A stretch of DNA of 24,842 nt from positions 1 through 24,842 of the IMG/VR virus record IMGVR_UViG_3300020159_000160; one strand, given 5' to 3'. The DNA is from a virus. The notes beneath the pieces were generated by a model, which saw only the letters and a program-made list of their open reading frames with translations, was not told the DNA's origin and ran no database searches. Shown in pieces: positions 1,654-14,916 of the stretch (its first letter is position 1; every line of letters begins with the position of its first letter). The translations under genes were made by a program, and so were the position numbers.

Positions 1654-2223
1654 CTACTTAGTATACTGAATTTTAGTTATAATTGGTTCTGCTGTATATA
1701 TATCCCATTGCGCAGCAATTTGAATTGCTTTACGTACTGCTTTTTCTACCGATTCGGGTTTAGTAAGCGCTTTGATATTAAATGCTTCAAGAGCGCCAAG
1801 GGCAACATCACTACCGCTACCAGAATAATAAATACCACGAATATCCCTATCCCAAGAATAATCTTCAAAGATAGGATAAATGACTCCACGCACGCTGACA
1901 AGAAAGGATGAATCATGTGCTGCTGCATCGCCGTCCTCTTTCATATCATAACCTGCATCTACAAATGCTTGTCGCATCTGCGGAATAAATTTCTGAGTTA
2001 TGTAAACATCTAAATCTTCTGCTGCTGTAGGTTTAGGTGCCTTCCAGCCAAATTGCATAATATTTGAACCACGACCTGAACCAGAACCTGCAATAAGAAT
2101 TCCGTTATTTTCTATAATCTTATGTGTAGCCATGTCTATTGGTCGGCCACTTTCATCACTAGAACGTGAATCACAACCTAATACAGACCAGCCATCACCC
2201 TGAATTGCTACTAGTGTTGTCAT
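1654..2223 (-). CDS. Proteasome beta/HslV-like Ntn-hydrolase, candidate head-maturation protease
   Basis: A 189-residue protein with the hallmarks of the proteasome-beta/HslV Ntn-hydrolase fold. After removal of Met1 the chain begins Thr-Thr. With the first Thr as Thr1, an Asp falls at position 17 and an Arg at 19 (motif GCDSR), exactly as in proteasome beta subunits. A Lys at 34 (THKI) matches catalytic Lys33. GSGSGRG (46-52) follows a strand, as in the family. A later GSGSDVALGALEA (residues 135-147) matches the conserved serine-containing GSG segment, and WDIYTA (173-178) matches the D166/S169 region. No long propeptide is present. It lies directly after the portal, where many phages encode the capsid maturation protease, so it probably processes capsid or scaffold. 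Degradation of host proteins is an alternative. The fold is well supported and the role is inference. Confidence 0.85.
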   Translation of the reverse strand: MTTLVAIQGDGWSVLGCDSRSSDESGRPIDMATHKIIENNGILIAGSGSGRGSNIMQFGWKAPKPTAAEDLDVYITQKFIPQMRQAFVDAGYDMKEDGDAAAHDSSFLVSVRGVIYPIFEDYSWDRDIRGIYYSGSGSDVALGALEAFNIKALTKPESVEKAVRKAIQIAAQWDIYTAEPIITKIQYTK

Positions 2224-2237
2224 CGTCCCCTACTTAA

Positions 2238-4007
2238 TTATCGTCTACGTGATGTGCTAACTCTTGACTGTGCTGTGCCAGCGCCTGTAAGTCCTGAGAT
2301 TAAACTCATTACATCAGGTGGTGGTGTTTGTGGTCCTGCAGAAGGAGAGCCTCCTACTGGAGCGCCACCTGGAACAGGGGACGGCTGCTCAACAGGAGTA
2401 CCTGGTACCCCAGCAGGAGGAACTTGTGGCTCGGGAGCAAACGTCTCGGCAATTGCATCTTCTAATGCTTTACCATTTTGACGTGCTTGAATCACCGAAG
2501 CAATGTTCTTAATAATTCCTGATGGGTCTTGTCCTTGAGTTGCCATCTGCGGAATTGCCTGTGCTGTTGCACTAAGTGCTGCCAACAGGCCATCACGAAG
2601 TTTTTCAATTTCAATCTTTTCAAGTTCTTGTGTTACGTTAACTGTAAATGGAAGTTCACGCATTGCCATATCTTTAGAGATAAGACCTCCACCAAGTGCT
2701 TGAAGCATAAAAATAAGACCCTGTGCTGGGTTAAGTCCAGCAAGCATTCCATAACGAACATCTGCAGAGTAGTCACCCTTAATGTCGCGGGTTGGACGAT
2801 ACTTTACTTCGTATGGAGAACCAGAGTCTACGCCACGAATTGTTTTTTCTTCTGCGAAAATCTTTTCATCAACTTCGAAACAGATAGATATAACGTCACG
2901 AAGTGCTGCAGCAAAGATAGCCTGTGCTGATTTTACCTGTGTATCAAAAGCACCCATAAGTGCTTGAACGCCTTGGCCTGTAACTACGGAAGCATCAATG
3001 TTTCCTGTACGGCTCTCTGGGTAACGTGCGCCAACACGGAGTTCAGCATTGAGCAATGTCTGCTCTGTGAATGCTCCTTGTGGAAGATTAAGTTCAACTC
3101 GACGGACTCCTGCTGGATTCGATGTGCGAATAACAGCGTCTCCACCAAGTTGAAGTTCTTGCACGTCTTGTGGTAGAACAATTGGTGCTTGTACTGACTT
3201 CTCTGCTGCTTCCATAGCAAGCAAAGCAAATCGGTTACGAAGCAATTGAATACCGAGTACGTCGTCAAACTGACCACGCATCTCACCGTCGATAGATGGT
3301 TTGCGTGCAACAACAACCATCATCTTTCCGACTGGATTCATCGCACGAGATAGAACTAAGTTCTTCTTTTCTGGGATATAAACGACAGATTGCTCTGAGT
3401 CATAGTAACGAATCATCTCTAACTGATGAGTCAAATCCTGCTCATAGCCTTGACGGCCAAGAAGTTGGGATTCGTAATCAGGGAACTGAGATACGAGTTC
3501 GCCTAGTGTCATAGCATATCGTTTGGCAAATGCAACGCAACGTCCGTAGCGGTCAAATTCTGGGTAAGCCCCAACAGGATTTTCTACGCGGATACGTGGC
3601 AACTTGCTTTCTTCGTCTAATTCAATTACGAAAGGGACGAAACCATATGTGATGTACCAATCTGCCCCAGAGTACATTTGTACAGATAGGTCAGAATGGG
3701 AAAAATAATTTGAAGCAATGCGTGTACGTTTGTCAGCAAACTGACGCGCCTTATCGCTTGTTTGGCTAACTGCTGAACAGTTAACTGCTGGAAGTGGTGC
3801 CATAACCTCAGAAAGGTCACGTGCCACAATGTCAATAAAGTTAGCAACTACGTTGGCATCAATGCCATCTGGAAAGAAATCAGGATAGACTTCTGAGATT
3901 TTACCTTTACGTACGGCAAGAACATCTTGGTTGCGTGAGTCACGTTCAAGGTTGCGATAACGAAGAGCGTCAACTCTTGCTACAACCTGGTCCATTGATA
4001 ATGCCAT
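2238..4007 (-). CDS. Portal protein
   Basis: A protein of about 589 residues, directly downstream of the terminase. I chose the ATG at 4007 (MALSMDQVV) because AGGA lies a few bases upstream, overlapping the terminase stop; an ATG at 4046 inside the terminase gene would add 13 residues. Length, mixed alpha/beta composition and a central block (YPESRTGNIDASVVTGQGVQ) are consistent with phage portals, the dodecameric ring through which DNA enters and leaves the capsid. The C-terminal 70 residues are rich in Pro and Gly and probably disordered. The assignment rests mainly on position, size and overall resemblance rather than on a catalytic signature. Confidence 0.85.
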   Translation of the reverse strand: MALSMDQVVARVDALRYRNLERDSRNQDVLAVRKGKISEVYPDFFPDGIDANVVANFIDIVARDLSEVMAPLPAVNCSAVSQTSDKARQFADKRTRIASNYFSHSDLSVQMYSGADWYITYGFVPFVIELDEESKLPRIRVENPVGAYPEFDRYGRCVAFAKRYAMTLGELVSQFPDYESQLLGRQGYEQDLTHQLEMIRYYDSEQSVVYIPEKKNLVLSRAMNPVGKMMVVVARKPSIDGEMRGQFDDVLGIQLLRNRFALLAMEAAEKSVQAPIVLPQDVQELQLGGDAVIRTSNPAGVRRVELNLPQGAFTEQTLLNAELRVGARYPESRTGNIDASVVTGQGVQALMGAFDTQVKSAQAIFAAALRDVISICFEVDEKIFAEEKTIRGVDSGSPYEVKYRPTRDIKGDYSADVRYGMLAGLNPAQGLIFMLQALGGGLISKDMAMRELPFTVNVTQELEKIEIEKLRDGLLAALSATAQAIPQMATQGQDPSGIIKNIASVIQARQNGKALEDAIAETFAPEPQVPPAGVPGTPVEQPSPVPGGAPVGGSPSAGPQTPPPDVMSLISGLTGAGTAQSRVSTSRRR

Positions 4008-6415: not shown

Positions 6416-6430
6416 GTATGATAATCATAC
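6416..6430. promoter_or_regulatory. Palindrome site 1 (GTATGATAATCATAC)
   Basis: Exact copy of the 15-bp palindrome (7-bp arms, central A), 35 bases after the LexA box and 127 bases before the 207-aa gene. Confidence 0.85.
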
Positions 6431-6557
6431 GCCTGAGAAAAAAAATAAAAATAAATCCCCGAAATGGTGTTGAAATGCCCGAAATGATGCTAAGGTTTTC
6501 CTATGGGTCGGAAAGTATCCAATCCATGAAATACCCACAGAAAAGGAAATAAAAAAA

Positions 6558-7181
6558 ATGGCTCAAAACACAGTTAAAACCGCTACTAATTCGACATCAC
6601 CAAAAGTGAAGGTCGAAAAAACCGAAATCGTGCCAATGGCAGAAATCGTCAGCGCTTACTCAAACCTCATTAACCATGATGGCGAAATTGAGTTCGTGCT
6701 AGAAATTGCGGAAATGCTCAAGACAGGCAAAACCTCAATTCGCACAGTTCAGGCTTCAATCGCTGAGGCTTCCAAGATTGGAAATGCCCCAACAATTCGC
6801 AAAAGCCATGTTCAGCACTTTCCAATTTTCTCAGAAATAATTGAGAAAATCTCAGACGCTCAAGAGCAATCTGTGAGCAATCTGCTGAAATTGGCTGAGC
6901 GTGTTGGTCGCGAGCATGGCGCTGAGGGTTCAGCCCAAGCAATCGCAAGCGCTCAGACTATCGCTGAGTTGGAGAAAATCGCGCCAACACAAACAAAATC
7001 TCGAAGCAATGCAAAAGCAGAACCCAAGCAAAAGACTATTGAGAACATAATCTCCCAAGCCTTGCTTGAGGTTCGCACGCTGAAGAACCTGAAAGAATTA
7101 AAAACCTCAGACCTTCAGACCCTCACCGCCTTGCTTGAGGTGTTAGTGCCTTGCGCCAAACGCTCAATGGTTAAGAACTAA
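6558..7181 (+). CDS. Unknown 207-aa helical protein downstream of the origin and LexA box
   Basis: A 207-residue protein that is mostly charged and helical. It has a Lys/Thr/Ser-rich N-terminus (1-25), a helical core (about 28-130) with a short segment like KTGKTSIRTVQASIAEASK that could be a helix-turn-helix, a Lys-rich linker (145-160) and a final helical, Leu-rich domain (160-207). A purine-rich AAAAGGAAA precedes the ATG, at longer than usual spacing. The gene is followed by its own strong terminator, so it forms a single-gene unit. Its place beside DnaA boxes and a LexA site suggests an origin-binding, partition-like or regulatory protein; this is inference and I recognise no family. Confidence 0.8.
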   Translation: MAQNTVKTATNSTSPKVKVEKTEIVPMAEIVSAYSNLINHDGEIEFVLEIAEMLKTGKTSIRTVQASIAEASKIGNAPTIRKSHVQHFPIFSEIIEKISDAQEQSVSNLLKLAERVGREHGAEGSAQAIASAQTIAELEKIAPTQTKSRSNAKAEPKQKTIENIISQALLEVRTLKNLKELKTSDLQTLTALLEVLVPCAKRSMVKN

Positions 7182-7196
7182 CCAAACACGAAGAAA

Positions 7197-7225
7197 CCTC
7201 GACCCCTAGCGGGTCGGGGTTTTTT
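7197..7225 (+). terminator. Rho-independent terminator
   Basis: CCTCGACCC pairs with GGGTCGGGG across a CTAGC loop (9-bp GC-rich stem with one G-T pair), followed by six T residues. It lies 15 bases after the stop of the 207-aa gene. Confidence 0.9.
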
Positions 7226-7264
7226 CATGCCCAAAATCCGACACGCCCGAGCGCGGGGGGAAAC

Positions 7265-7285
7265 CCGACACAAACCAACACAAAC
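7265..7285 (+). repeat. Tandem pair of CCRACACAAAC motifs
   Basis: CCGACACAAAC at 7265-7275 shares its last C with CCAACACAAAC at 7275-7285. Further plus-strand copies lie at 6353-6363, 6984-6994, 8305-8315, 10573-10583 and 12668-12678. One minus-strand copy is at 18431-18441. Confidence 0.5.
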
Positions 7286-7332
7286 TTTTTGCTGCGCAGC
7301 GTGGCGCATCTGAGGGCAATCGGGTGGCGGTT

Positions 7333-7347
7333 GTATGATAATCATAC
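7333..7347. promoter_or_regulatory. Palindrome site 2
   Basis: Exact GTATGATAATCATAC in the gene-free leader, first of three copies at roughly 100-bp spacing. Confidence 0.85.
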
Positions 7348-7435
7348 GGGAAAATAAATGCTGGCAATGCTTGCTTTATGGCTGAGAGGAGAGTAGAGTA
7401 GTCTTATGAAGTTAGGAAAGCGTATCTGTTGGCTT

Positions 7436-7450
7436 GTATGATAATCATAC
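7436..7450. promoter_or_regulatory. Palindrome site 3
   Basis: Exact copy in the gene-free leader, 103 bases after site 2, flanked by CTT and AGT. Confidence 0.85.
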
Positions 7451-7535
7451 AGTAAATAGTTTCTCGTAGAACTTGACTTCTAGGTCAGCCTAGATTACTC
7501 TTAGAGTATGAAGGTTGCACTACGCAGTAAGCCTT

Positions 7536-7550
7536 GTATGATAATCATAC
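7536..7550. promoter_or_regulatory. Palindrome site 4
   Basis: Exact copy 100 bases after site 3. It ends 12 bases before the AAAGGA ribosome site of the next gene. A weak -35-like TTGCAC lies 16 bases before the TATGAT within the site. Confidence 0.85.
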
Positions 7551-7572
7551 AGGTTCTAATCGAAAGGATAGC

Positions 7573-7728
7573 ATGATGAACTTAGACGAAATGGAAGCCC
7601 TAGTCGCAGAAGCGCGTAGTGCTATCCGAGCAGAAGTCCTCAAGAATAATGAAGACGAAGCACAAGCCAAAGAGGCAAAGCGCCTTGCTGGTGTTCAAGC
7701 CCTAGAAAGGGCAAAAACCTATGCATGA
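7573..7728 (+). CDS. Small unknown helical protein (51 aa)
   Basis: A 51-residue, almost entirely helical and charged protein with long Ala/Glu/Lys/Arg heptad-like runs, possibly a coiled coil. Two adjacent ATGs (7573, 7576) follow AAAGGA at 7563-7568; the second has the better spacing. It is the first gene after palindrome site 4. It ends just inside the region leading to the next gene. No family is recognised. Confidence 0.65.
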   Translation: MMNLDEMEALVAEARSAIRAEVLKNNEDEAQAKEAKRLAGVQALERAKTYA

Positions 7729-7741
7729 TTGGAGTATGACT

Positions 7742-7912
7742 ATGAACGAAAGCGACCTAGATTTAGAGGCTATGGAGATTGCACGCGACATCTTCACAGA
7801 CGAAGAACTAGAAGAAATCCTACTAGAAGAAGATGCCTACGGCATAGACATCTCCCTCGATGAAATCTTAATGGAAAGCGAAGATGACGAATACTCGGAG
7901 TGGGCTGAGTAA
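7742..7912 (+). CDS. Very acidic small protein (56 aa)
   Basis: A 56-residue protein starting at ATG 7742, chosen because GGAG at 7731-7734 lies seven bases upstream; in-frame ATGs at 7721 and 7736 are possible. I count 24 Asp/Glu and a single Arg, a net charge near -23. The acidic residues are spread over helical segments (FTDEELEEILLEED and ISLDEILMESEDDE). Strong, evenly spread negative charge in a tiny phage early protein is typical of DNA mimics that inhibit restriction or other DNA-binding enzymes, but this is inference. Its 3-prime end overlaps a tRNA-like RNA structure. Confidence 0.65.
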   Translation: MNESDLDLEAMEIARDIFTDEELEEILLEEDAYGIDISLDEILMESEDDEYSEWAE

Positions 7913-7971
7913 TACCATCTGGTAGCCTATGCTGGGCATAGCCATGAGTTCGATTCTCATGATAGGCACTC
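7898..7971 (+). ncRNA. tRNA-like cloverleaf, probably a degenerate tRNA
   Basis: A perfect T-arm-like hairpin lies at 7943-7961 (CATGAG-TTCGATT-CTCATG), containing the classic TTCGA loop. Upstream are an anticodon-arm-like CTATGC-TGG-GCATAG (7927-7941), GGCT/AGCC pairing (7903-7906 with 7924-7927) around a TGGTAG D-loop-like sequence, and GAGTG/CACTC closing ends (7898-7902 with 7967-7971). The proportions do not fit a canonical tRNA: only a 5-bp acceptor, an oversized D-loop and extra bases after the T-arm. GCCTAT (7925-7930) can also pair with ATAGGC (7962-7967). It may be a decayed or non-canonical tRNA, or a tRNA mimic. Confidence 0.3.
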
Positions 7972-7972
7972 T

Positions 7973-7987
7973 GTATGATAATCATAC
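7973..7987. promoter_or_regulatory. Palindrome site 5
   Basis: Exact copy, one base after the tRNA-like element and 24 bases before the ATG of the next gene, with AAGGG between. Confidence 0.85.
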
Positions 7988-8011
7988 AGTAATCTAACGA
8001 AGGGAAATGAA

Positions 8012-8167
8012 ATGGAACTGTTCAACCTAGAGGTAAGCAAGTGGGGCATCAGCCTTACAACATACTTCGGTGATGTGTATGTCTTTTGGCGTAGCGTCTA
8101 CTTAGTAATCGGTATCGTAATCGTTCTCCGCCTTGCTAAGATTATCCGCAAGAAGGTAAGCAAATGA
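8012..8167 (+). CDS. Single-pass membrane protein (51 aa)
   Basis: Starts at ATG 8012 with AAGGG about seven bases upstream, right after palindrome site 5. Residues 1-28 are amphipathic and aromatic-rich. Residues about 29-46 form one hydrophobic helix (YLVIGIVIVLRLAKII) followed by a basic tail (RKKVSK), which predicts a cytoplasmic C-terminus. The stop overlaps the next start as ATGA. The function is unknown; small early membrane proteins in phages often interfere with host envelope processes or superinfection. Confidence 0.75.
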   Translation: MELFNLEVSKWGISLTTYFGDVYVFWRSVYLVIGIVIVLRLAKIIRKKVSK

Positions 8168-8298
8168 GTAAAGTATGGGAGTCTTTCCTAACCGCAGAAG
8201 ATGTTAGTGGCTACACACCTGACGAAATCGAATTACTTATAGCCGACCTTGATGATGCTGTAATGGCTGTAATAGAAGATTTCGGAGGACTATCATGA
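8164..8298 (+). CDS. Small acidic protein (44 aa)
   Basis: A 44-residue acidic protein with a helical centre (TPDEIELLIADLDDAVMAVIEDF). Both ends overlap neighbours as ATGA, so it lies inside a translationally coupled trio. No family is recognised. Confidence 0.7.
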   Translation: MSKVWESFLTAEDVSGYTPDEIELLIADLDDAVMAVIEDFGGLS

Positions 8299-8483
8299 GT
8301 GCCGCCGACACAAACCTACTGCTCGACCTCACTCCGCGTGAAGTGGAAGTGATTCGAATGGCATTAAGGGCGCAACAGGACATCCACAAGCGCAACGATT
8401 TCAAGGTGCTTGTTGTTGAAGTGGAGACCCTACGCTCAAAAATTGCTGACGCTATGCTTGACTTACGCAAGACATTAGTATAA
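8295..8483 (+). CDS. Small helical protein (62 aa)
   Basis: A 62-residue protein with GGAGGA a few bases upstream and an ATGA overlap with the preceding gene. The sequence LTPREVEVIRMALRAQQ followed by a long helix (VEVETLRSKIADAMLDLRKT) resembles a short helix-turn-helix or coiled-coil protein. The segment TPREVEVIRMAL superficially recalls LuxR-type helices, but the protein is too short for a firm call. It ends the coupled trio that starts at 8012. Confidence 0.75.
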   Translation: MSAADTNLLLDLTPREVEVIRMALRAQQDIHKRNDFKVLVVEVETLRSKIADAMLDLRKTLV

Positions 8484-8516
8484 GGTTATACCTATAACTG
8501 AATAGCACCACCTCGC

Positions 8517-8531
8517 GTATGATAATCATAC
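8517..8531. promoter_or_regulatory. Palindrome site 6
   Basis: Exact copy 21 bases before the amidoligase ATG; GAGAGGATAG lies between site and start. Confidence 0.9.
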
Positions 8532-8552
8532 GGAGTATCGAGAGGATAGATT

Positions 8553-9758
8553 ATGGATACAGATGAAGTATCATCTGAACTAACTTGCAGAGGTTGTATG
8601 ACCGAAGTTAGTGAAGATGATGCGTATTACATCTCTCATTCAACTGATGTATCTTGCGCAGATTGTAAGGTAATCTGTGAGCATTGTGATGATGTCGGTT
8701 GGGTAAATGATGACTGGTTTTACATAGACCAAAGTGAGATGTGGTGTCAAAGTTGCATGGAAGACCATGCTAATTACTGTGATGACTGTAATGAGTATCA
8801 TACAGGCTCTAGTTATTACACAGAAGACACCAACAATTCTTACTGCGAAAACTGTGTGGGGAATACAAGTTGGTGTGAGGACTGTGATGCGTATTATGCT
8901 CACGGATGCTCAGACCATGACGGAGATGAAGCGCGGGTAATCCATGATTATTCTTACCGCCCTGACCCTATCTTCCACACTACTGATGACACTACCCGCT
9001 TATTCTTCGGACTAGAAATCGAAGTAGAAGCATCACGCAACAGGTCTGAATCAGCAGAATATGCGAGCAGACTTGAGCAACTGAGCCTAGCCTATCTCAA
9101 AAGTGATGGCTCTCTGAACTGTGGCTTTGAAATAGTCACGCACCCCATGACCCATGATTTTTACAAGAACGAAGCCTATGAGTTGTGGAATACTCTCGAA
9201 GCCTTACGAAGTAGGGTTGGTATCAAGGTGAAAGCGTGGGATGCGTCTACCGCAGGTCTGCACATTCACATCTCTCGCGCAGGATTCAATGGTGGTTCGC
9301 ACATGCACCGCTTCTTACGATTAGTGTATGATAATCAGACACTATACGAAGCGATAGCAGGTCGTTCATCTAGTCGCTGGGCTAAGTTTGATGATGCTCA
9401 AACCGACTATGTAGAAGAAGATAACGAAGGCAATAGAGAATGGAAATCTCGTCGCAATCTAAAGAATAAGTTAGACAACTCTCGCAATAGCGACAGATAC
9501 TCTGCGGTCAATACGCAGAACCATGCTACTTTAGAGATGCGTATCTTTAGGAGTAGCGTCAATAGCGACACAGTAAAATCATTTATAGACTTAGCGCACG
9601 CCAGCGTTGAGTATACTAGAGGTATGTCGGTAAGAGATGTGCGTCAAGGCGCACTATCACAAGACAACTTCTCCTCATATATACAGGACAATTCTGCCCT
9701 GTATCCCGAACTCAATGCTAGGTTAGCAAAGGTTGCTAATCAACTACAAAGTGTATGA
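8553..9758 (+). CDS. Amidoligase (COOH-NH2 ligase) with N-terminal zinc ribbons
   Basis: A 401-residue protein with two parts. Residues 12-119 carry a chain of about nine Cys pairs (CRGC, CADC, CEHC, CQSC, CDDC, CENC, CEDC), probably several zinc ribbons. Residues 148-345 match the phage/bacterial amidoligase family, a glutamine-synthetase/GCS2-like fold that joins a carboxylate to an amine using ATP. The motifs are FGLEIEVEA (E155, E157, E159), SDGSLNCGFEIVTHP (D185, E193), AGLHIHIS (H237, H239) and HATLEMRIFR (E328, R330). The substrate is unknown; peptide or protein tagging and cell-wall modification are possibilities from the family. Palindrome site 6 precedes it, an eroded site lies within it (9326-9340), and its stop codon lies inside site 8. 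The amidotransferase gene follows directly. Confidence 0.85.
   Translation: MDTDEVSSELTCRGCMTEVSEDDAYYISHSTDVSCADCKVICEHCDDVGWVNDDWFYIDQSEMWCQSCMEDHANYCDDCNEYHTGSSYYTEDTNNSYCENCVGNTSWCEDCDAYYAHGCSDHDGDEARVIHDYSYRPDPIFHTTDDTTRLFFGLEIEVEASRNRSESAEYASRLEQLSLAYLKSDGSLNCGFEIVTHPMTHDFYKNEAYELWNTLEALRSRVGIKVKAWDASTAGLHIHISRAGFNGGSHMHRFLRLVYDNQTLYEAIAGRSSSRWAKFDDAQTDYVEEDNEGNREWKSRRNLKNKLDNSRNSDRYSAVNTQNHATLEMRIFRSSVNSDTVKSFIDLAHASVEYTRGMSVRDVRQGALSQDNFSSYIQDNSALYPELNARLAKVANQLQSV
9326..9340. promoter_or_regulatory. Palindrome site 7, one mismatch, inside the amidoligase gene
   Basis: GTATGATAATCAGAC differs from the consensus by one base. It is read as YDNQT, in the same frame as the other intragenic copies. 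Confidence 0.6.
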
Positions 9759-9767
9759 TAATCATAC
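9753..9767. promoter_or_regulatory. Palindrome site 8
   Basis: Exact copy that contains the amidoligase stop codon (GTA TGA) and ends 14 bases before the amidotransferase ATG, with AGGATAG between. Confidence 0.9.
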
Positions 9768-9781
9768 AGATAGGATAGATT

Positions 9782-10624
9782 ATGTGCTTATTGGTCGTAT
9801 GCTCTCCCAACTCTACTCCTCGTAAAAAAGATTTAGAGTGTGCTTCATGTAATAACCCGCATGGCTTCGGCTATGCAGTAATTGCTGGTGATAAGATTAT
9901 CACAGGCAAGGGTATGTCTGCTAAGAAAATTATCAAAGAGTTCTTAGATGTTCGTAAAGAATACCCGAATAGTTATGCTATGTTTCATGCTAGATATGCA
10001 ACGCATGGCGTAAAGAATGACGATAACTGCCACCCTTTCAAGGTTGGTGGTAGAGATGATACCTATTTAGCGCACAATGGTATCCTCGACATAGAAATCC
10101 ATGCAACAGATAAGCGTAGTGATACACGCATCTTTGCAGAGGATACCCTTCCAACTATTGGCGGTGTCAAAGCCCTTGATGACGACAATGTATGGAAAAT
10201 AGTAAGTAAGTGGGCTAGTGGTAGCAAGGTTGCTATTCTTACACTAGACCCTAGTGCTGGCGACCAATGCTATATCATTAACGAAACTAGTGGACATTGG
10301 GATAATGAGGGAATGTGGTGGTCTAATGATACATACAAGCCATCCGCATGGTCTAGTTATATCAAACCCAGTAGTGCGACGGCGCTGGCGTATGATAATC
10401 ATACAGATACGGAAATACTGGACGATTTCGAATGTCCTTCATGTAGGGCGATAGCATTTGAGGATGCTAACCCTTACTACTGCGAAATGTGCTACACCTG
10501 CTTCGACTGCGTAGGGACATATGGCGACAGTTGCCTATGCTATACGCCAGCCGATAGCAAGTGGATGCGCGACCAACACAAACCTCAGAATGCGTGGTAT
10601 TATGACAAACATTTCGACTTCTAA
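9782..10624 (+). CDS. Class-II glutamine amidotransferase with C-terminal zinc-binding tail
   Basis: A 280-residue Ntn-hydrolase. The chain begins Met-Cys, so Cys2 becomes the N-terminal nucleophile that releases ammonia from glutamine. HARYATHG (69-76) and LAHNG (96-100) are the diagnostic motifs of the class-II fold. Residues 218-253 form a Cys-rich tail (CPSC, CEMCYTCFDC, CLC) that probably binds zinc and echoes the Cys-rich head of the adjacent amidoligase. No synthase domain is attached, so a partner must accept the ammonia or the activity must be a hydrolase or ligase acting on gamma-glutamyl compounds. The neighbouring amidoligase is the obvious candidate. Palindrome site 9 lies inside the gene and encodes YDNHT (204-208), between the catalytic domain and the Cys-rich tail. 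Confidence 0.85.
   Translation: MCLLVVCSPNSTPRKKDLECASCNNPHGFGYAVIAGDKIITGKGMSAKKIIKEFLDVRKEYPNSYAMFHARYATHGVKNDDNCHPFKVGGRDDTYLAHNGILDIEIHATDKRSDTRIFAEDTLPTIGGVKALDDDNVWKIVSKWASGSKVAILTLDPSAGDQCYIINETSGHWDNEGMWWSNDTYKPSAWSSYIKPSSATALAYDNHTDTEILDDFECPSCRAIAFEDANPYYCEMCYTCFDCVGTYGDSCLCYTPADSKWMRDQHKPQNAWYYDKHFDF
10390..10404. promoter_or_regulatory. Palindrome site 9, inside the amidotransferase gene
   Basis: Exact copy read as YDNHT at the junction between catalytic domain and Cys-rich tail. Confidence 0.85.
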
Positions 10625-10811
10625 GGAGATTAAGATACACGAACCCTTGCGGGGGATGTGGGTAATGGGATACATTACTGAAACAATTACTGATGAAGGG
10701 ACTGTGCGATATGGCACTTTCCCGACAATAGAAAAAGCCGAAGAATGGGCTATTCAACTAATTAACGCTGAGATAGTTCCTGTATACTATCCAGCATATA
10801 ACAGGGGGTAA
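10602..10811 (+). CDS. Small unknown protein (about 69 aa, start uncertain)
   Basis: The conserved-looking part is WVMGYITETITDEG then FPTIEKAEEWAIQL, a compact alpha/beta protein ending VPVYYPAYNRG. The start is unclear. ATG 10602 overlaps the amidotransferase end by 23 bases and lacks a good ribosome site. ATG 10656 follows a G-run too closely. A strong AAGGAG at 10623-10628 is best spaced for a non-standard ATA at 10635. I recognise no family. Confidence 0.6.
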   Translation: MTNISTSKEIKIHEPLRGMWVMGYITETITDEGTVRYGTFPTIEKAEEWAIQLINAEIVPVYYPAYNRG

Positions 10812-10813
10812 GT

Positions 10814-10942
10814 GTGGACAAAGAAAAACTACGTGATGTGGTGTTGGATTATATCCACCTACTCACATCAAGCAACTCGTATGATTATCATACGGATAAA
10901 AAACTGGCAGATGCACGATTACTACTAGAGGAGTTATCATGA
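10814..10942 (+). CDS. Small helical protein (42 aa, GTG start) containing a palindrome site
   Basis: A 42-residue frame from GTG 10814, two bases after the previous stop and preceded by GGGGG. It ends with an ATGA overlap onto the next gene. Both halves are helical (KEKLRDVVLDYIHLL and KKLADARLLLEEL), joined by a linker SSNSYDYHTD that is encoded by palindrome site 10. The site therefore sits where an insertion would least disturb the protein. No family is recognised. Confidence 0.65.
   Translation: MDKEKLRDVVLDYIHLLTSSNSYDYHTDKKLADARLLLEELS
10879..10893. promoter_or_regulatory. Palindrome site 10, opposite orientation
   Basis: GTATGATTATCATAC, the reverse complement of the usual form (central T instead of A). 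It is the only copy in this orientation. Confidence 0.85.
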
Positions 10943-11193
10943 ATGATGCGGAAGTAACAGTTAGCGAGATGAATGAATCGTTCAATATCAAACAAAGGAT
11001 GCGACGAGAAACGGGCTGGGTCAAAGACTTTGAGTTAGTCAATGGTGCTCGTATGTTATTCGGTGGACGATTATACTGGGATGAAAATGATGGATACAGA
11101 GTAACTTGGGATACTACTGCACCTGAAATGGCAGATAGACCTGAGTTTGAATATGTATTAGATTCGATACTGGAGGATAAATATAATGGATGA
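10939..11193 (+). CDS. Small unknown protein (84 aa)
   Basis: GAGGAG precedes the ATG, which overlaps the previous stop. The N-terminal 30 residues are helical and charged. The rest (MLFGGRLYWDENDGYRVTW then FEYVLDSILEDKYNG) looks like a small beta-sheet domain with a C-terminal helix. It is coupled to the next gene by an 8-base overlap. The function is unknown. Confidence 0.75.
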   Translation: MNDAEVTVSEMNESFNIKQRMRRETGWVKDFELVNGARMLFGGRLYWDENDGYRVTWDTTAPEMADRPEFEYVLDSILEDKYNG

Positions 11194-11389
11194 CAATGTA
11201 GAATATGATGCAACTGTTACTGTTACATTTAGGTTCAAGTTAGAAGCGCAGGACGATTACGCTGCGGAGAAAAATGCTGCCATTGAGTGGCAGAACAACC
11301 TCTATCATAGCGAAATCGAAGATATATGGGTAGAAATGATTGAAGAAGATGACTCTGATGAATCTATCGGGGGTGATGAAGATGAATAA
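11186..11389 (+). CDS. Small acidic protein (67 aa)
   Basis: GGAGGATAAATATA precedes the ATG. The first 20 residues alternate as a beta strand (YDATVTVTFRFKLEA). A helix follows (DDYAAEKNAAIEWQNNLY), then a highly acidic tail (EMIEEDDSDESIGGDEDE). It overlaps genes on both sides by 8 bases. No family is recognised. Confidence 0.75.
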   Translation: MDDNVEYDATVTVTFRFKLEAQDDYAAEKNAAIEWQNNLYHSEIEDIWVEMIEEDDSDESIGGDEDE

Positions 11390-11582
11390 GAAAGAACTAA
11401 AAGCACTAAAGGAAGAGTTGACTGACCAAGCATGGCAGATACTTTACTTCGAGTCAGCAATGTCTAATGAAGATAAGGCACACAAGGCACTACTGGAACG
11501 ACTTGACACTATCTACTGGACAGGCTATAATCAGGGTATGGAAGATGCGGTAAATAGCGACGACTTAGGGAGTGCATACTAA
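11382..11582 (+). CDS. Small helical protein (66 aa)
   Basis: Starts at ATG 11382 (MNKKELKALKEELTDQ), overlapping the previous gene by 8 bases; an upstream ATG at 11340 would give an unlikely Met-rich extension. The protein is helical, with KALLERLDTIYWTGYNQGMEDAV near the end. The pattern YxxGYNxGxxDA recalls small phage proteins of unknown function that occur in clusters. It is coupled to the next gene by TAATG. Confidence 0.75.
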   Translation: MNKKELKALKEELTDQAWQILYFESAMSNEDKAHKALLERLDTIYWTGYNQGMEDAVNSDDLGSAY

Positions 11583-11728
11583 TGAGTGAACCAATGTGGC
11601 TTGACGGAGACCCCGTTGCACTAGGAACTGCCATCTGTGATGAATGCGACTGCAACCATGACTCAGATGAAGACTGCGTTGTAGAGGATGACCCTGATAG
11701 AATGTGGGATGAGATGCATGAAGACTGA
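11582..11728 (+). CDS. Tiny Cys-rich acidic protein (48 aa)
   Basis: A 48-residue protein starting within the previous stop (TAATG) and overlapping the WhiB gene by 11 bases. It has CDECDC at 19-24, followed by NHDSDEDC, so four Cys and a His lie within 14 residues and could bind a metal. About a third of the residues are acidic. It sits directly before the iron-sulfur regulator WhiB. The function is unknown. Confidence 0.65.
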   Translation: MSEPMWLDGDPVALGTAICDECDCNHDSDEDCVVEDDPDRMWDEMHED

Positions 11729-12056
11729 ACCACTAATAGGTAACTGCACGGACGACCCGAATGCAGATTACTGGTTTCCTGAGAACGAAAACGGTCGACC
11801 TTCTAGGGCTAGACGAGAAGCGTTAGTGAGTAGCATCAACTACGCTATCGAACAATGTAATACTTGCCCTGCAAAAGAAAGATGTTTACAAGAAGGAATG
11901 AAATCAGAAAATCTACCGCATGGTATATGGGGTGGATTACTCGCTGGCGAACGTATCGCTATGCTAGGTAAGTCACGAGAAGATTATGGAGTGCAGACAG
12001 ATTTAGGACGCGCTCTAGACTTTGCCGATAAGATGATACCTCTAGTAAGGTGGTAA
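11718..12056 (+). CDS. WhiB-family iron-sulfur transcription regulator
   Basis: A 112-residue protein (ATG 11718; ATG 11688 would start inside the preceding gene). It has the four invariant cysteines of WhiB-like proteins, C10, C47, C50 and C56, in the pattern C-x36-C-x2-C-x5-C, which bind a 4Fe-4S cluster. An FPE-type segment follows C10, and the signature GIWGG turn is at 69-73. WhiB proteins bind the host primary sigma factor and redirect transcription, and phage copies can repress the host gene or influence superinfection. This family is confined to Actinobacteria and their phages, so the gene is the clearest host marker in the window. The C-terminus (EDYGVQTDLGRALDF) lacks an obvious AT-hook. 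Confidence 0.9.
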   Translation: MKTEPLIGNCTDDPNADYWFPENENGRPSRARREALVSSINYAIEQCNTCPAKERCLQEGMKSENLPHGIWGGLLAGERIAMLGKSREDYGVQTDLGRALDFADKMIPLVRW

Positions 12057-12059
12057 AAT

Positions 12060-12440
12060 ATGAAAAAATTATTACTATTATTTGTAGTAATGTTCATGTT
12101 GTTCGGAATAACGCATATAGACCAAGCACCAATAAAAAAACCCCATAAGTGGGGTGTTGAAGATAGTAAAGCATATGCAAGAGATATAATGTTAGCGTGG
12201 ACGGACAAGCAATTCGTCTGCTTAGATAGATTATGGCAGAAGGAATCTAATTGGAGACCCGAAGCCTACAATAAAGTAAAAGTAATGGGCAAGAATGCGG
12301 GTGGCATACCACAGATACTAGGTATGGACCCAAAAACACCAGCAACACGGCAAATTGAACGCGGATTTGCTTATATTTTATATCGCTATGGCTCACCATG
12401 CCAAGCGTTAAAGTTCCATCAAGAGAACGGGTGGTATTGA
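12060..12440 (+). CDS. Secreted lysozyme-like transglycosylase
   Basis: A 126-residue protein with an N-terminal signal or anchor (KKLLLLFVVMFMLFGI, 2-17) followed by a compact lysozyme-like domain. Key features are FVCLDRLWQKESNWRPEAYN (catalytic Glu62), GGIPQIL (81-87) and the ending RYGSPCQALKFHQENGWY. These match the small transglycosylase domain common in actinobacterial secreted proteins, which cleaves the glycan of peptidoglycan. C54 and C114 could form a disulfide. The gene lies in the early block next to the WhiB gene, far from the lysis cassette, so a role in wall remodelling or superinfection control is as likely as lysis. It is coupled to the next gene by TGATG. Confidence 0.85.
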   Translation: MKKLLLLFVVMFMLFGITHIDQAPIKKPHKWGVEDSKAYARDIMLAWTDKQFVCLDRLWQKESNWRPEAYNKVKVMGKNAGGIPQILGMDPKTPATRQIERGFAYILYRYGSPCQALKFHQENGWY

Positions 12441-12691
12441 TGATAACAAGGGTTAGACTTGGTCAATTACAGACCTTCAAGGAAGATGCATATAAGCAAG
12501 AGCCTCGAGTTCAGAAAGTAATAGACAAACTGCATGAATTCGGGTATACTAAGTTAGATGCTAGGGTCTTAGCCAAAGATATAGTTAAAAGGTTAGATAA
12601 CTATATTGGCGTTCAGGATGCTATAGCACAACAACGTCAACGGCTGTATGATAATCATACACTCCGTCCGACACAAACTATGCGGAGGTAG
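12440..12691 (+). CDS. Small unknown basic helical protein (83 aa)
   Basis: Starts at ATG 12440 within the previous stop (TGATG). It is basic and helical, with DKLHEFGYTKLDARVLAKDIVKRL in the centre. Palindrome site 11 lies near the end and encodes YDNHT, followed by a basic tail that also contains a CCGACACAAAC motif. The function is unknown; a nucleic-acid-binding role would fit the charge. Confidence 0.75.
   Translation: MITRVRLGQLQTFKEDAYKQEPRVQKVIDKLHEFGYTKLDARVLAKDIVKRLDNYIGVQDAIAQQRQRLYDNHTLRPTQTMRR
12646..12660. promoter_or_regulatory. Palindrome site 11, inside a small gene
   Basis: Exact copy read as YDNHT, 35 bases before the FmdB-like gene. It is the last copy in the window. Confidence 0.85.
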
Positions 12692-13474: not shown

Positions 13475-14182
13475 TTAGTCGGTTTCCTCATGCCCATCGT
13501 TATCGGTGGAATCATCGTTGGTGCTTACAATCTCGTCTGGTATCTCGGAAACTTTCTCGGGAGAATCTTTATCTAGATGTGGCCTAAAGCCACCAATGCG
13601 TGTAATCAATTTCTTAATGGCTCTATTGTGGCGCATACGTGCTGCGTCTTCTGAGCCAAGTTCCATCTCGGCAGCAATAGCAGCATAATCCAGGGACTCA
13701 GCATACTTAAAGAAGAGAACGACCTTATCTTCTTTACTTAATTTATTATAGGCTGAGTTAATTTCGACCATCATCGCCATCATGTTACCGCCCTCTGATG
13801 GTGCTGGTGGTCGTCCTGTTTTTCCAAGGTTTAATACTGGCATCACACCAAACTCACCACGCAATACGGATGGAAGCAACGCTTCAACCATAGCGGGTTC
13901 GTAGTAGAATAAGTCAGATATTTCGTAGCCAATAGACTTAGCCTTCCACTTCTGACAGTAATCTAATGCTTGGTTACGAAGTGAACGATAGATAAGATTT
14001 TTAGCATCACGCTTACCGATTGATTCCCACTCAGATAGTTTATTAGGATGTTCTAGAAACCATTCATATAATTCTTGTTTAATATCTTCTAGTTCAACCA
14101 TGTCATATCTTTTATGATACTCAGCAGCAACGTTAACTACTATGTAATCCCAAGGTTCAATTCGTTCCCAATCCATTACCAT
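13475..14182 (-). CDS. RNA polymerase sigma-factor-like protein
   Basis: A 235-residue protein with two sigma-like parts. Residues about 20-80 resemble region 2 (AAEYHKRYDMVELEDIKQEL, then a helix ending RNQALDY). Residues about 140-195 form a region-4 helix-turn-helix (YNKLSKEDKVVLFFKYAESL, DYAAIAAEMELGSEDAARMR, HNRAIKKLI). The middle is Pro/Gly-rich, and the last 32 residues are an acidic, probably disordered tail. It would direct host RNA polymerase to phage promoters. It closes the replication operon and overlaps the preceding gene by 7 bases. A non-sigma helix-turn-helix regulator is the alternative. Confidence 0.75.
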   Translation of the reverse strand: MVMDWERIEPWDYIVVNVAAEYHKRYDMVELEDIKQELYEWFLEHPNKLSEWESIGKRDAKNLIYRSLRNQALDYCQKWKAKSIGYEISDLFYYEPAMVEALLPSVLRGEFGVMPVLNLGKTGRPPAPSEGGNMMAMMVEINSAYNKLSKEDKVVLFFKYAESLDYAAIAAEMELGSEDAARMRHNRAIKKLITRIGGFRPHLDKDSPEKVSEIPDEIVSTNDDSTDNDGHEETD

Positions 14183-14916
14183 TTGAAAGTTTTGCCCTCC
14201 ACAGTAAATGATTTGTTAACAATAGGAACTAACTGCGGAACTACTGTCTTACCTTCAACATGAAGGATGCCAAAGCCCTGTTGCCATGTGAATAAGCCAG
14301 CCTTTATATACTTAGCATTGTCGTAATTCATTAAGTTGCCCAGTTCCATACCCCAAACAGTCTTAGGCTTACCGCCACGATACGTTTGAGTGTGATGTGT
14401 TAAGCCCATACGGTGAGTGTGTCCACATACTACTGACATACCACTACGCTTGGCTAATCCAAGGGCTGTGGCTCCAGCAGTAGGTTGCACGTTACCCTCA
14501 TCACCATGCATTAACAACCAGCCAGGGGCTAGTTCATAAGGGTCTTTGTGGTATTTAATTCCCAACTCATCAAGCCCTAGAAAGTTTTCCAATTGCAGTT
14601 CAGGTAAGCCAAGTAATCCTGGCGCTCTCATTGCAACTGTATTAAACAATCTATCAGTATGATTACTTCTAATCATGTGCTCAATAGTTAAATCGTAAAG
14701 GACTTTCTTAGTTGTATCTCTGTCGCGTCCGATAGAACGCTCAAACTCTAACTCAGTTCCCTTACTCCACTTACTAATAGTCTGCATATCCATTTCGTCA
14801 CCACAGGATACAACAGTTTCAGGTTGATACCATTGAATGAATTTTGCGATAGCATTCACGGCTTCTACATCGTGATACGGTACCTGGAGGTCTGATATAC
14901 AGACTATAGATTTCAT
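14176..14916 (-). CDS. Calcineurin-like metallophosphoesterase
   Basis: A 246-residue protein with the ordered motifs of the family: SDLQVPYHD (8-16, metal ligands D9 and H15), CGDEMD (38-43), SNHTDR (about 84-89, replacing the usual GNHD/E), MHGDEG and GHTHR. Together these bind two metal ions and hydrolyse phosphoesters, probably in nucleotides or DNA ends given the operon. It overlaps the HNH gene by 4 bases and the sigma-like gene by 7. The substrate cannot be read from the sequence. Confidence 0.85.
   Translation of the reverse strand: MKSIVCISDLQVPYHDVEAVNAIAKFIQWYQPETVVSCGDEMDMQTISKWSKGTELEFERSIGRDRDTTKKVLYDLTIEHMIRSNHTDRLFNTVAMRAPGLLGLPELQLENFLGLDELGIKYHKDPYELAPGWLLMHGDEGNVQPTAGATALGLAKRSGMSVVCGHTHRMGLTHHTQTYRGGKPKTVWGMELGNLMNYDNAKYIKAGLFTWQQGFGILHVEGKTVVPQLVPIVNKSFTVEGKTFKW

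Follow-up and report, generated by a model that had tools for sequence, protein, structure and literature searches.

The operon that we describe here, from a 24.8-kb virus record (the window, meaning the whole stretch of 24,842 nucleotides analysed; it is a fragment, and its relatives come without stated completeness), is probably a glutamine-dependent amide-ligase module, with enzymes that act together, under the control of an autoregulated operator system, and comparison of related genomes suggests that the specificity of this system has diversified repeatedly. According to this model the first gene of the operon would encode a DNA-binding regulator that binds, as a dimer, genome-specific palindromes lying before its own gene and before the following genes, including those of both enzymes (Table 1). 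Such a regulator would control itself and would repress or time the whole operon, repression being more likely than activation. Within the phage group its specificity would have changed time and again, with the operator copies rewritten to match. The enzyme pair is of a known kind and the palindromes are the new part.

Table 1. Features of the operon and the grounds for each assignment (positions are those of the window)
Feature	Position	Strand	Basis
Palindrome 1, before the regulator gene	6416-6430		exact; syntenic sites in relatives
Putative cognate regulator (207 aa) of no named family, encoded first in the operon	6558-7181	+	co-variation with the palindrome word
Palindrome 2	7333-7347		exact
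Palindrome 3	7436-7450		exact
Palindrome 4	7536-7550		exact
Palindrome 5, 24 nt before ATG 8012	7973-7987		exact
Palindrome 6 (GTATGATAATCATAC), ends 21 nt before the amidoligase ATG 8553	8517-8531		exact
Amidoligase, 401 aa, GS-fold carboxylate-amine ligase	8553-9758	+	Pfam, PHROG, AF2, Foldseek
Amidoligase, N-terminal Cys-rich module, residues 12-119, tandem CxxC units, LIM-like	8586-8909	+	invariant Cys; weak LIM matches
Amidoligase, GS-fold catalytic part, residues ~150-390	9000-9722	+	invariant columns of the alignment
Palindrome 7 (GTATGATAATCATAC), 14 nt before the amidotransferase ATG 9782; includes the amidoligase stop codon	9753-9767		exact
Class-II (Ntn) glutamine amidotransferase, 280 aa	9782-10624	+	PHROG, GATase_4, AF2, Foldseek
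Amidotransferase, glutaminase domain, residues 2-186	9785-10339	+	invariant motif residues
Palindrome 8, within the amidotransferase linker, encodes YDNHT	10390-10404		exact
Amidotransferase, C-terminal Cys-rich tail, residues 218-253	10433-10540	+	invariant Cys
Palindrome 9 (centre T), 45 nt before ATG 10939	10879-10893		exact
Palindrome 10, 34 nt before ATG 12695	12646-12660		exact

The amidoligase and its adjacent glutamine amidotransferase

An earlier note on this DNA had read two neighboring open reading frames, of 401 and 280 amino acids, as an amidoligase and a stand-alone Ntn amidotransferase; both frames are present at 8553-9758 and 9782-10624. The 401-aa protein passes the curated cut-off of the Pfam Amidoligase_2 model (PF12224; E 1.2e-9, 38.9 bits against a cut-off of 22) and matches phrog_16683 at 3e-31. 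Its AlphaFold (AF2) model, with a mean pLDDT of 86.6, is nearest in Foldseek searches to YbdK (1r8g/1tt4), Dop, PafA, GS and plant GCL, at modest significance (best E 1.2e-3). The residues GxExE 153-157, DGS 185-187, E193, H237, H239, N320, N323, E328 and R330 are invariant in the alignment, and most of the catalytic residues are retained in the distant phages Marvin, ctgrD200 and MEP402. The protein thus combines a GS-type fold (Foldseek E about 1e-3) with acidic metal/ATP residues (GxExE, E193, E328, with R330), and both profile search and fold comparison place it, as claimed, in the amidoligase/GS-fold group.

The identification of the 280-aa protein as a stand-alone Ntn amidotransferase was likewise borne out: 1) it matches phrog_25883 at 6.5e-39 and falls slightly below the Pfam cut-offs (GATase_4, 22.0 against 23 bits, 8.6e-5; GATase_6, 22.6 against 27). 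2) It contains the full class-II glutaminase motif set (Cys2, R71, T74-H75-G76, N99-G100 and D114), which is invariant in 53 aligned amidotransferases and present in its entirety in Marvin, ctgrD200 and MEP402. 3) Its AF2 model (mean pLDDT 71.7, the C-terminal tail being predicted poorly and with low confidence) recovers the glutaminase of GlmS/GFAT at 1.8e-7 to 1e-6 with probability 1.00, that is, the Ntn glutaminase fold; EgtC (4zfk, 4zfl) is also matched, at 7.6e-5. Solved structures searched with the profiles of both enzymes yielded no strong sequence match.

Each enzyme further carries a Cys-rich module at the end to which the earlier note had assigned it, with cysteines that are invariant in 52-77 relatives. 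In the N-terminal module of the amidoligase 14 cysteines are invariant across 52 aligned relatives and at 100% in 68, whereas the tail of the amidotransferase has 8 invariant cysteines, namely C218, 221, 234, 237, 240, 243, 251 and 253. The ligase module gives weak LIM-domain matches, both by profile and by fold, which are compatible with zinc binding, and both modules are likely to be structural zinc modules.

The two genes stay linked in relatives. Among about 80 IMG/VR loci, every one that is not cut at this point has the amidoligase gene immediately followed by that of the amidotransferase on one strand, and the same order extends to Mycobacterium phage Marvin, Methylophilales phage MEP402 and ctgrD200, at 24-35% identity. 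An amidotransferase 68% identical to that of the window occurs at 2915-3328 of a 3.3-kb contig filed under a Rhodobacteraceae MAG (RFQY01000240.1), probably a misbinned phage contig. In a search of genome contigs this one MAG contig was found to carry a related amidotransferase, and no clear prophage was seen. We propose that the two enzymes form one functional module and act together, the donor being glutamine or a gamma-glutamyl compound. The amidotransferase, as a class-II glutaminase with an N-terminal Cys, would free ammonia from glutamine or cut a gamma-glutamyl amide, and the amidoligase, as an ATP-dependent GS-fold ligase, would form an amide on a carboxylate. The two proteins may form a complex, perhaps docking through their probable zinc modules. 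Their substrate may belong to the host envelope or be a small metabolite, and host proteins, wall peptides or a signalling molecule, as the earlier note suggested, are possible targets.

Amidoligase/GATase pairs have been named earlier in phages, with proposed roles in wall modification against superinfection or in secondary-metabolite synthesis (PMC10580990, PMC3890496, PMC5498523); hence the pair of the window is of a known type. It could remodel host peptidoglycan or envelope peptides, the ligase making amide links and the amidotransferase trimming them, and so block superinfection as proposed for phiEco32-like phages. Both the proposal made for related pairs (PMC10580990, PMC5498523, citing Iyer 2009) and an actinobacterial host with its envelope agree with this, but cassettes described in the literature mostly include an ATP-grasp ligase and a gamma-glutamyl cyclotransferase as well, and no ATP-grasp was detected in 21 relatives with PF13535, the one model tried; we regard such a role as conceivable, with considerable doubt. 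It concerns the target and is compatible with an operator-controlled amide-ligase module. The pair might also work in the manner of EgtA and EgtC, the ligase placing a gamma-glutamyl group on a metabolite to protect it and the Ntn enzyme removing it later, with no ammonia transfer. The EgtC matches and the glutamate-cysteine ligase-type folds (YbdK, plant GCL) found by Foldseek point in this direction, yet GlmS-type glutaminases rank above EgtC and the GlmS/PurF motif set is complete. The residues of this set serve to recognize the glutamyl group in either kind of enzyme, so that it does not discriminate between them, and overall we consider the protect-deprotect scheme rather unlikely.

Palindromes of the window and of related genomes

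The palindrome GTATGATNATCATAC occurs in 10 exact copies within 6416-12660, nine with a central A and one with a central T, against 0.17 expected by chance even with up to 2 mismatches allowed. The earlier note had given each enzyme its own palindrome. A perfect GTATGATAATCATAC does end 21 nt before the amidoligase start and 14 nt before that of the amidotransferase, but the number of copies shows that these two sites belong to an operon-wide set rather than to one palindrome per enzyme. A further copy with one mismatch, at 9326-9340 within the amidoligase coding sequence, also occurs in two related genomes and may be a coding coincidence. Rfam gave no match. Overlap of the palindromes with sigma-70 promoters was considered and rejected, as a scan found 19 against 18.3 expected from shuffles, which is no excess. 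Separately, a perfect TTGACA-17-TATAAT promoter lies at 11503-11531 on the plus strand, upstream of a WhiB gene at 11688.

Twenty near-complete relative genomes have palindromes at the same positions, with differing, genome-specific words. Measured from the amidoligase start the sites lie at about -2100, -1200, -1100, -600, -31, +1200, +2090 and +3200 to +4000, and the words include GCCGTAT.ATACGGC, GTCCGAT.ATCGGAC, ATCCGTTTAAACGGAT, GTTCGGTTAACCGAAC, GGTCGGCTAGCCGACC and GTCGGGCTAGCCCGAC, among others. In the near-complete relatives (39-41 kb) that share the word of the window the sites are limited to this one operon; a lone site towards the opposite end of one record (G003) fits circular permutation of that record. 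At 53 of 55 loci the last 70 nt ahead of the amidoligase start include the genome's own word; for the amidotransferase start this is so at 38 of 54 (16 lack it there), compared with 6% for random positions. Across loci most sites precede a start by 8-31 nt, distances that may be off by some codons because gene starts in the relatives were assigned mechanically. At one locus (L028) another group's word, GTCGGGTTAGCCCGAC, stands before the amidoligase (start 6369) while the regulator and the other sites are of the ACTATAT type; this is apparently a second recombinant or a transitional genome.

Co-variation of the palindromes with a candidate regulator

The palindrome word co-varies with a single protein of about 200 residues, encoded by the first gene past the first palindrome in genomes with the complete region, for which we collected 56 loci. 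Distances between regulators over residues 58-97 follow those between palindromes with a Mantel r of 0.74 at 51 loci (palindrome distance being taken on 6 bases, so that the words GTATGAT and GTATGAA score as equal); for the enzymes r is 0.44 and 0.47. Given both enzymes the partial correlation is 0.66, a value that 0 of 2000 permutations attained. When 31 gene families from 17 near-complete genomes were ranked with mean genome distance removed, the regulator came first (partial r 0.62) and the amidotransferase was the runner-up (0.32); the ranking extends to these 31 families, and a binder encoded by a missed gene would escape it. The phage WhiB and the sigma factor were rejected as binders, with partial correlations of just 0.05 and 0.10.

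No family in Pfam, PHROG, NCBIfam or PADLOC rose above chance for the regulator family, nor did Pfam or PHROG yield one for five of its divergent members. No homologue was found in named phages at E <= 1, the solved structures searched with the regulator profile gave chance matches only, and no anti-defence families were found. Searches of viral contigs with single proteins brought up close relatives, on contigs of the same type. Residues ~58-97 give the impression of a helix-turn-helix. Sliding-window mapping of specificity along the protein is not sharp, with a signal over residues ~25-130 and none in a linker at ~120-165.

A direct view of a change in specificity comes from a pair of closely related loci, L041 and L026, whose amidoligases are 90% and amidotransferases 94% identical, and whose regulator segments share 17% identity. 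When the two are aligned, the site ~600 nt ahead of the amidoligase and the one immediately before it have different words within conserved flanks; the site behind the amidotransferase differs too, in flanks that align poorly. The L041 site before the amidotransferase is a decayed form of the L026 word (GTCCGCTTTGACGGAC against GTCCGTTTAAACGGAC). As read from this alignment, the regulator has been replaced and the operator sites have been rewritten, one old site surviving in decayed form. The loci come from related genomes and their pairs are not independent, a concern that the partial tests and this swap address. Co-variation and swap together make what appears to be a strong case, and the regulator, a previously undescribed protein, probably binds the palindromes.

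We weighed two other explanations of the palindromes. If they were mRNA hairpins before ribosome-binding sites, like start-associated sequences, rather than DNA operators, their position close to gene starts would be accounted for, as would the bias of the odd-length sites on the coding strand (centre A in 193, T in 45); the cluster K SAS/ESAS elements also lie at starts (PMC3203893). Formation of a stem, however, does not by itself need the arm letters to be identical across a genome's copies, as they are, and mismatches in the arms comprise 50 GU and 57 AC, a lack of G-U preference that offers no hint that an RNA stem is under selection. Moreover, the even-length sites have no centre bias (the commonest asymmetric centres being TTAG, 48, and CTAA, 46), and the word co-varies with one protein. 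This makes hairpins improbable; a protein that binds RNA is nevertheless a possible reader of the palindromes. The co-variation could instead reflect shared ancestry alone, the true binder being a host factor or another phage gene, and mean genome distance by itself does correlate with palindrome distance (r 0.46). Against this, the partial correlations persist once the effect of mean genome distance is removed, a distant genome (G018) shares both the word and the regulator type of the window, and the near-identical L041 and L026 differ in both, so that we hold descent alone to be a distinctly improbable explanation.

Returning to the operator model, we offer a wider version of it tentatively: a new regulator family would recognize about nine palindrome copies within a single operon. 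In closely related actinophages, which apparently do not integrate, its specificity would have switched many times, with the operators rewritten each time. The outcome would resemble immunity between integrase-less phages that infect the same cell, and the amide-ligase pair would be the main enzymatic cargo. Neither a tyrosine nor a serine integrase was found in 21 relatives, and a role in prophage immunity is therefore unsupported at present; use of the operator system in competition between co-infecting phages is speculation.

Known systems, likely host and implications

The closest described counterparts of the enzymes are found in other phages. Gp105 and gp106 of Marvin are likewise an amidoligase followed by a class-II amidotransferase (30% and 34% identical), with the catalytic residues and many of the cysteines retained, but the flanks examined contain no repeated palindrome, and the regulator of the window has no homologue in named phages. 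MEP401/402, from Methylophilales (marine OM43) phages, and ctgrD200 have an adjacent amidoligase-GATase pair in the same order, although at 24-30% identity and with the zinc cysteines kept only in part. LUZ24-like and phiEco32-like cassettes (UFV-P2, PSA-HP1) also combine an amidoligase (PF12224 in UFV-P2) with a class-II GATase in early regions; unlike the window, they add an ATP-grasp, a COOH-NH2 ligase or a gamma-glutamyl cyclotransferase.

On the side of the sites, the stoperators of cluster A mycobacteriophages are similar in being numerous, genome-specific, biased in orientation and co-varying with one regulator (PMC6550527), and the central-A bias of the odd-length palindromes is of a kind known for them (PMC6550527). 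The group of the window thus shares genome-specific repeated sites that co-vary with a regulator, but its sites are near-perfect palindromes of 15-16 bp, about 9 per genome and in one operon only, no integrase was found in 21 relatives, and its regulator is unrelated to the cluster A repressor in every library searched. The SAS/ESAS of cluster K resemble them in lying just upstream of start codons, and the ESAS repeats vary between subclusters (PMC3203893). The SAS, however, is an asymmetric word of 13 bp whose binder was unknown in PMC3203893, whereas a candidate binder can be named for the group of the window; the palindrome words are wholly different from the SAS consensus GGGATAGGAGCCC.

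The cultured Ca. Planktophila phages LanE43-AprE7 and AprF5 have in common with the window the terminase (77%), the portal (78-79%), the helicase, the sigma factor and WhiB. The amidoligase, the amidotransferase and the regulator are all missing from them, and no palindromic word reaches 3 copies; these relatives accordingly do without all parts together. The host of the window phage probably belongs to the same actinobacterial order as the hosts of the Planktophila phages (PMC10202952), and the phage probably infects uncultured actinobacteria of freshwater; Ca. Nanopelagicales, the likely hosts, are abundant in freshwaters worldwide (PMC10202952). Elsewhere in the window, a 189-aa proteasome/HslV-like Ntn hydrolase (1654-2223, minus strand; phrog_1040) adjoins the portal gene and has counterparts in 18 of 20 relatives, the copy in G001 matching Pfam Proteasome at the cut-off; it is possibly a capsid-maturation protease. 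A phage sigma-like factor and a metallophosphoesterase (13475-14182 and 14176-14916, minus strand) border the convergent end of the operon and occur in 20 of 20 relatives.

The regulator-operator set would provide a control system for a described phage enzyme module, of which we found no tests. The regulator would be a candidate protein for start-proximal palindromes, a kind of site that lacks a binder in cluster K phages. Further, more than a dozen operator words, each with a putative cognate protein, form a natural series within the phage group, and the comparison of L041 with L026 gives a direct view of how all operator copies may change when the regulator is replaced.
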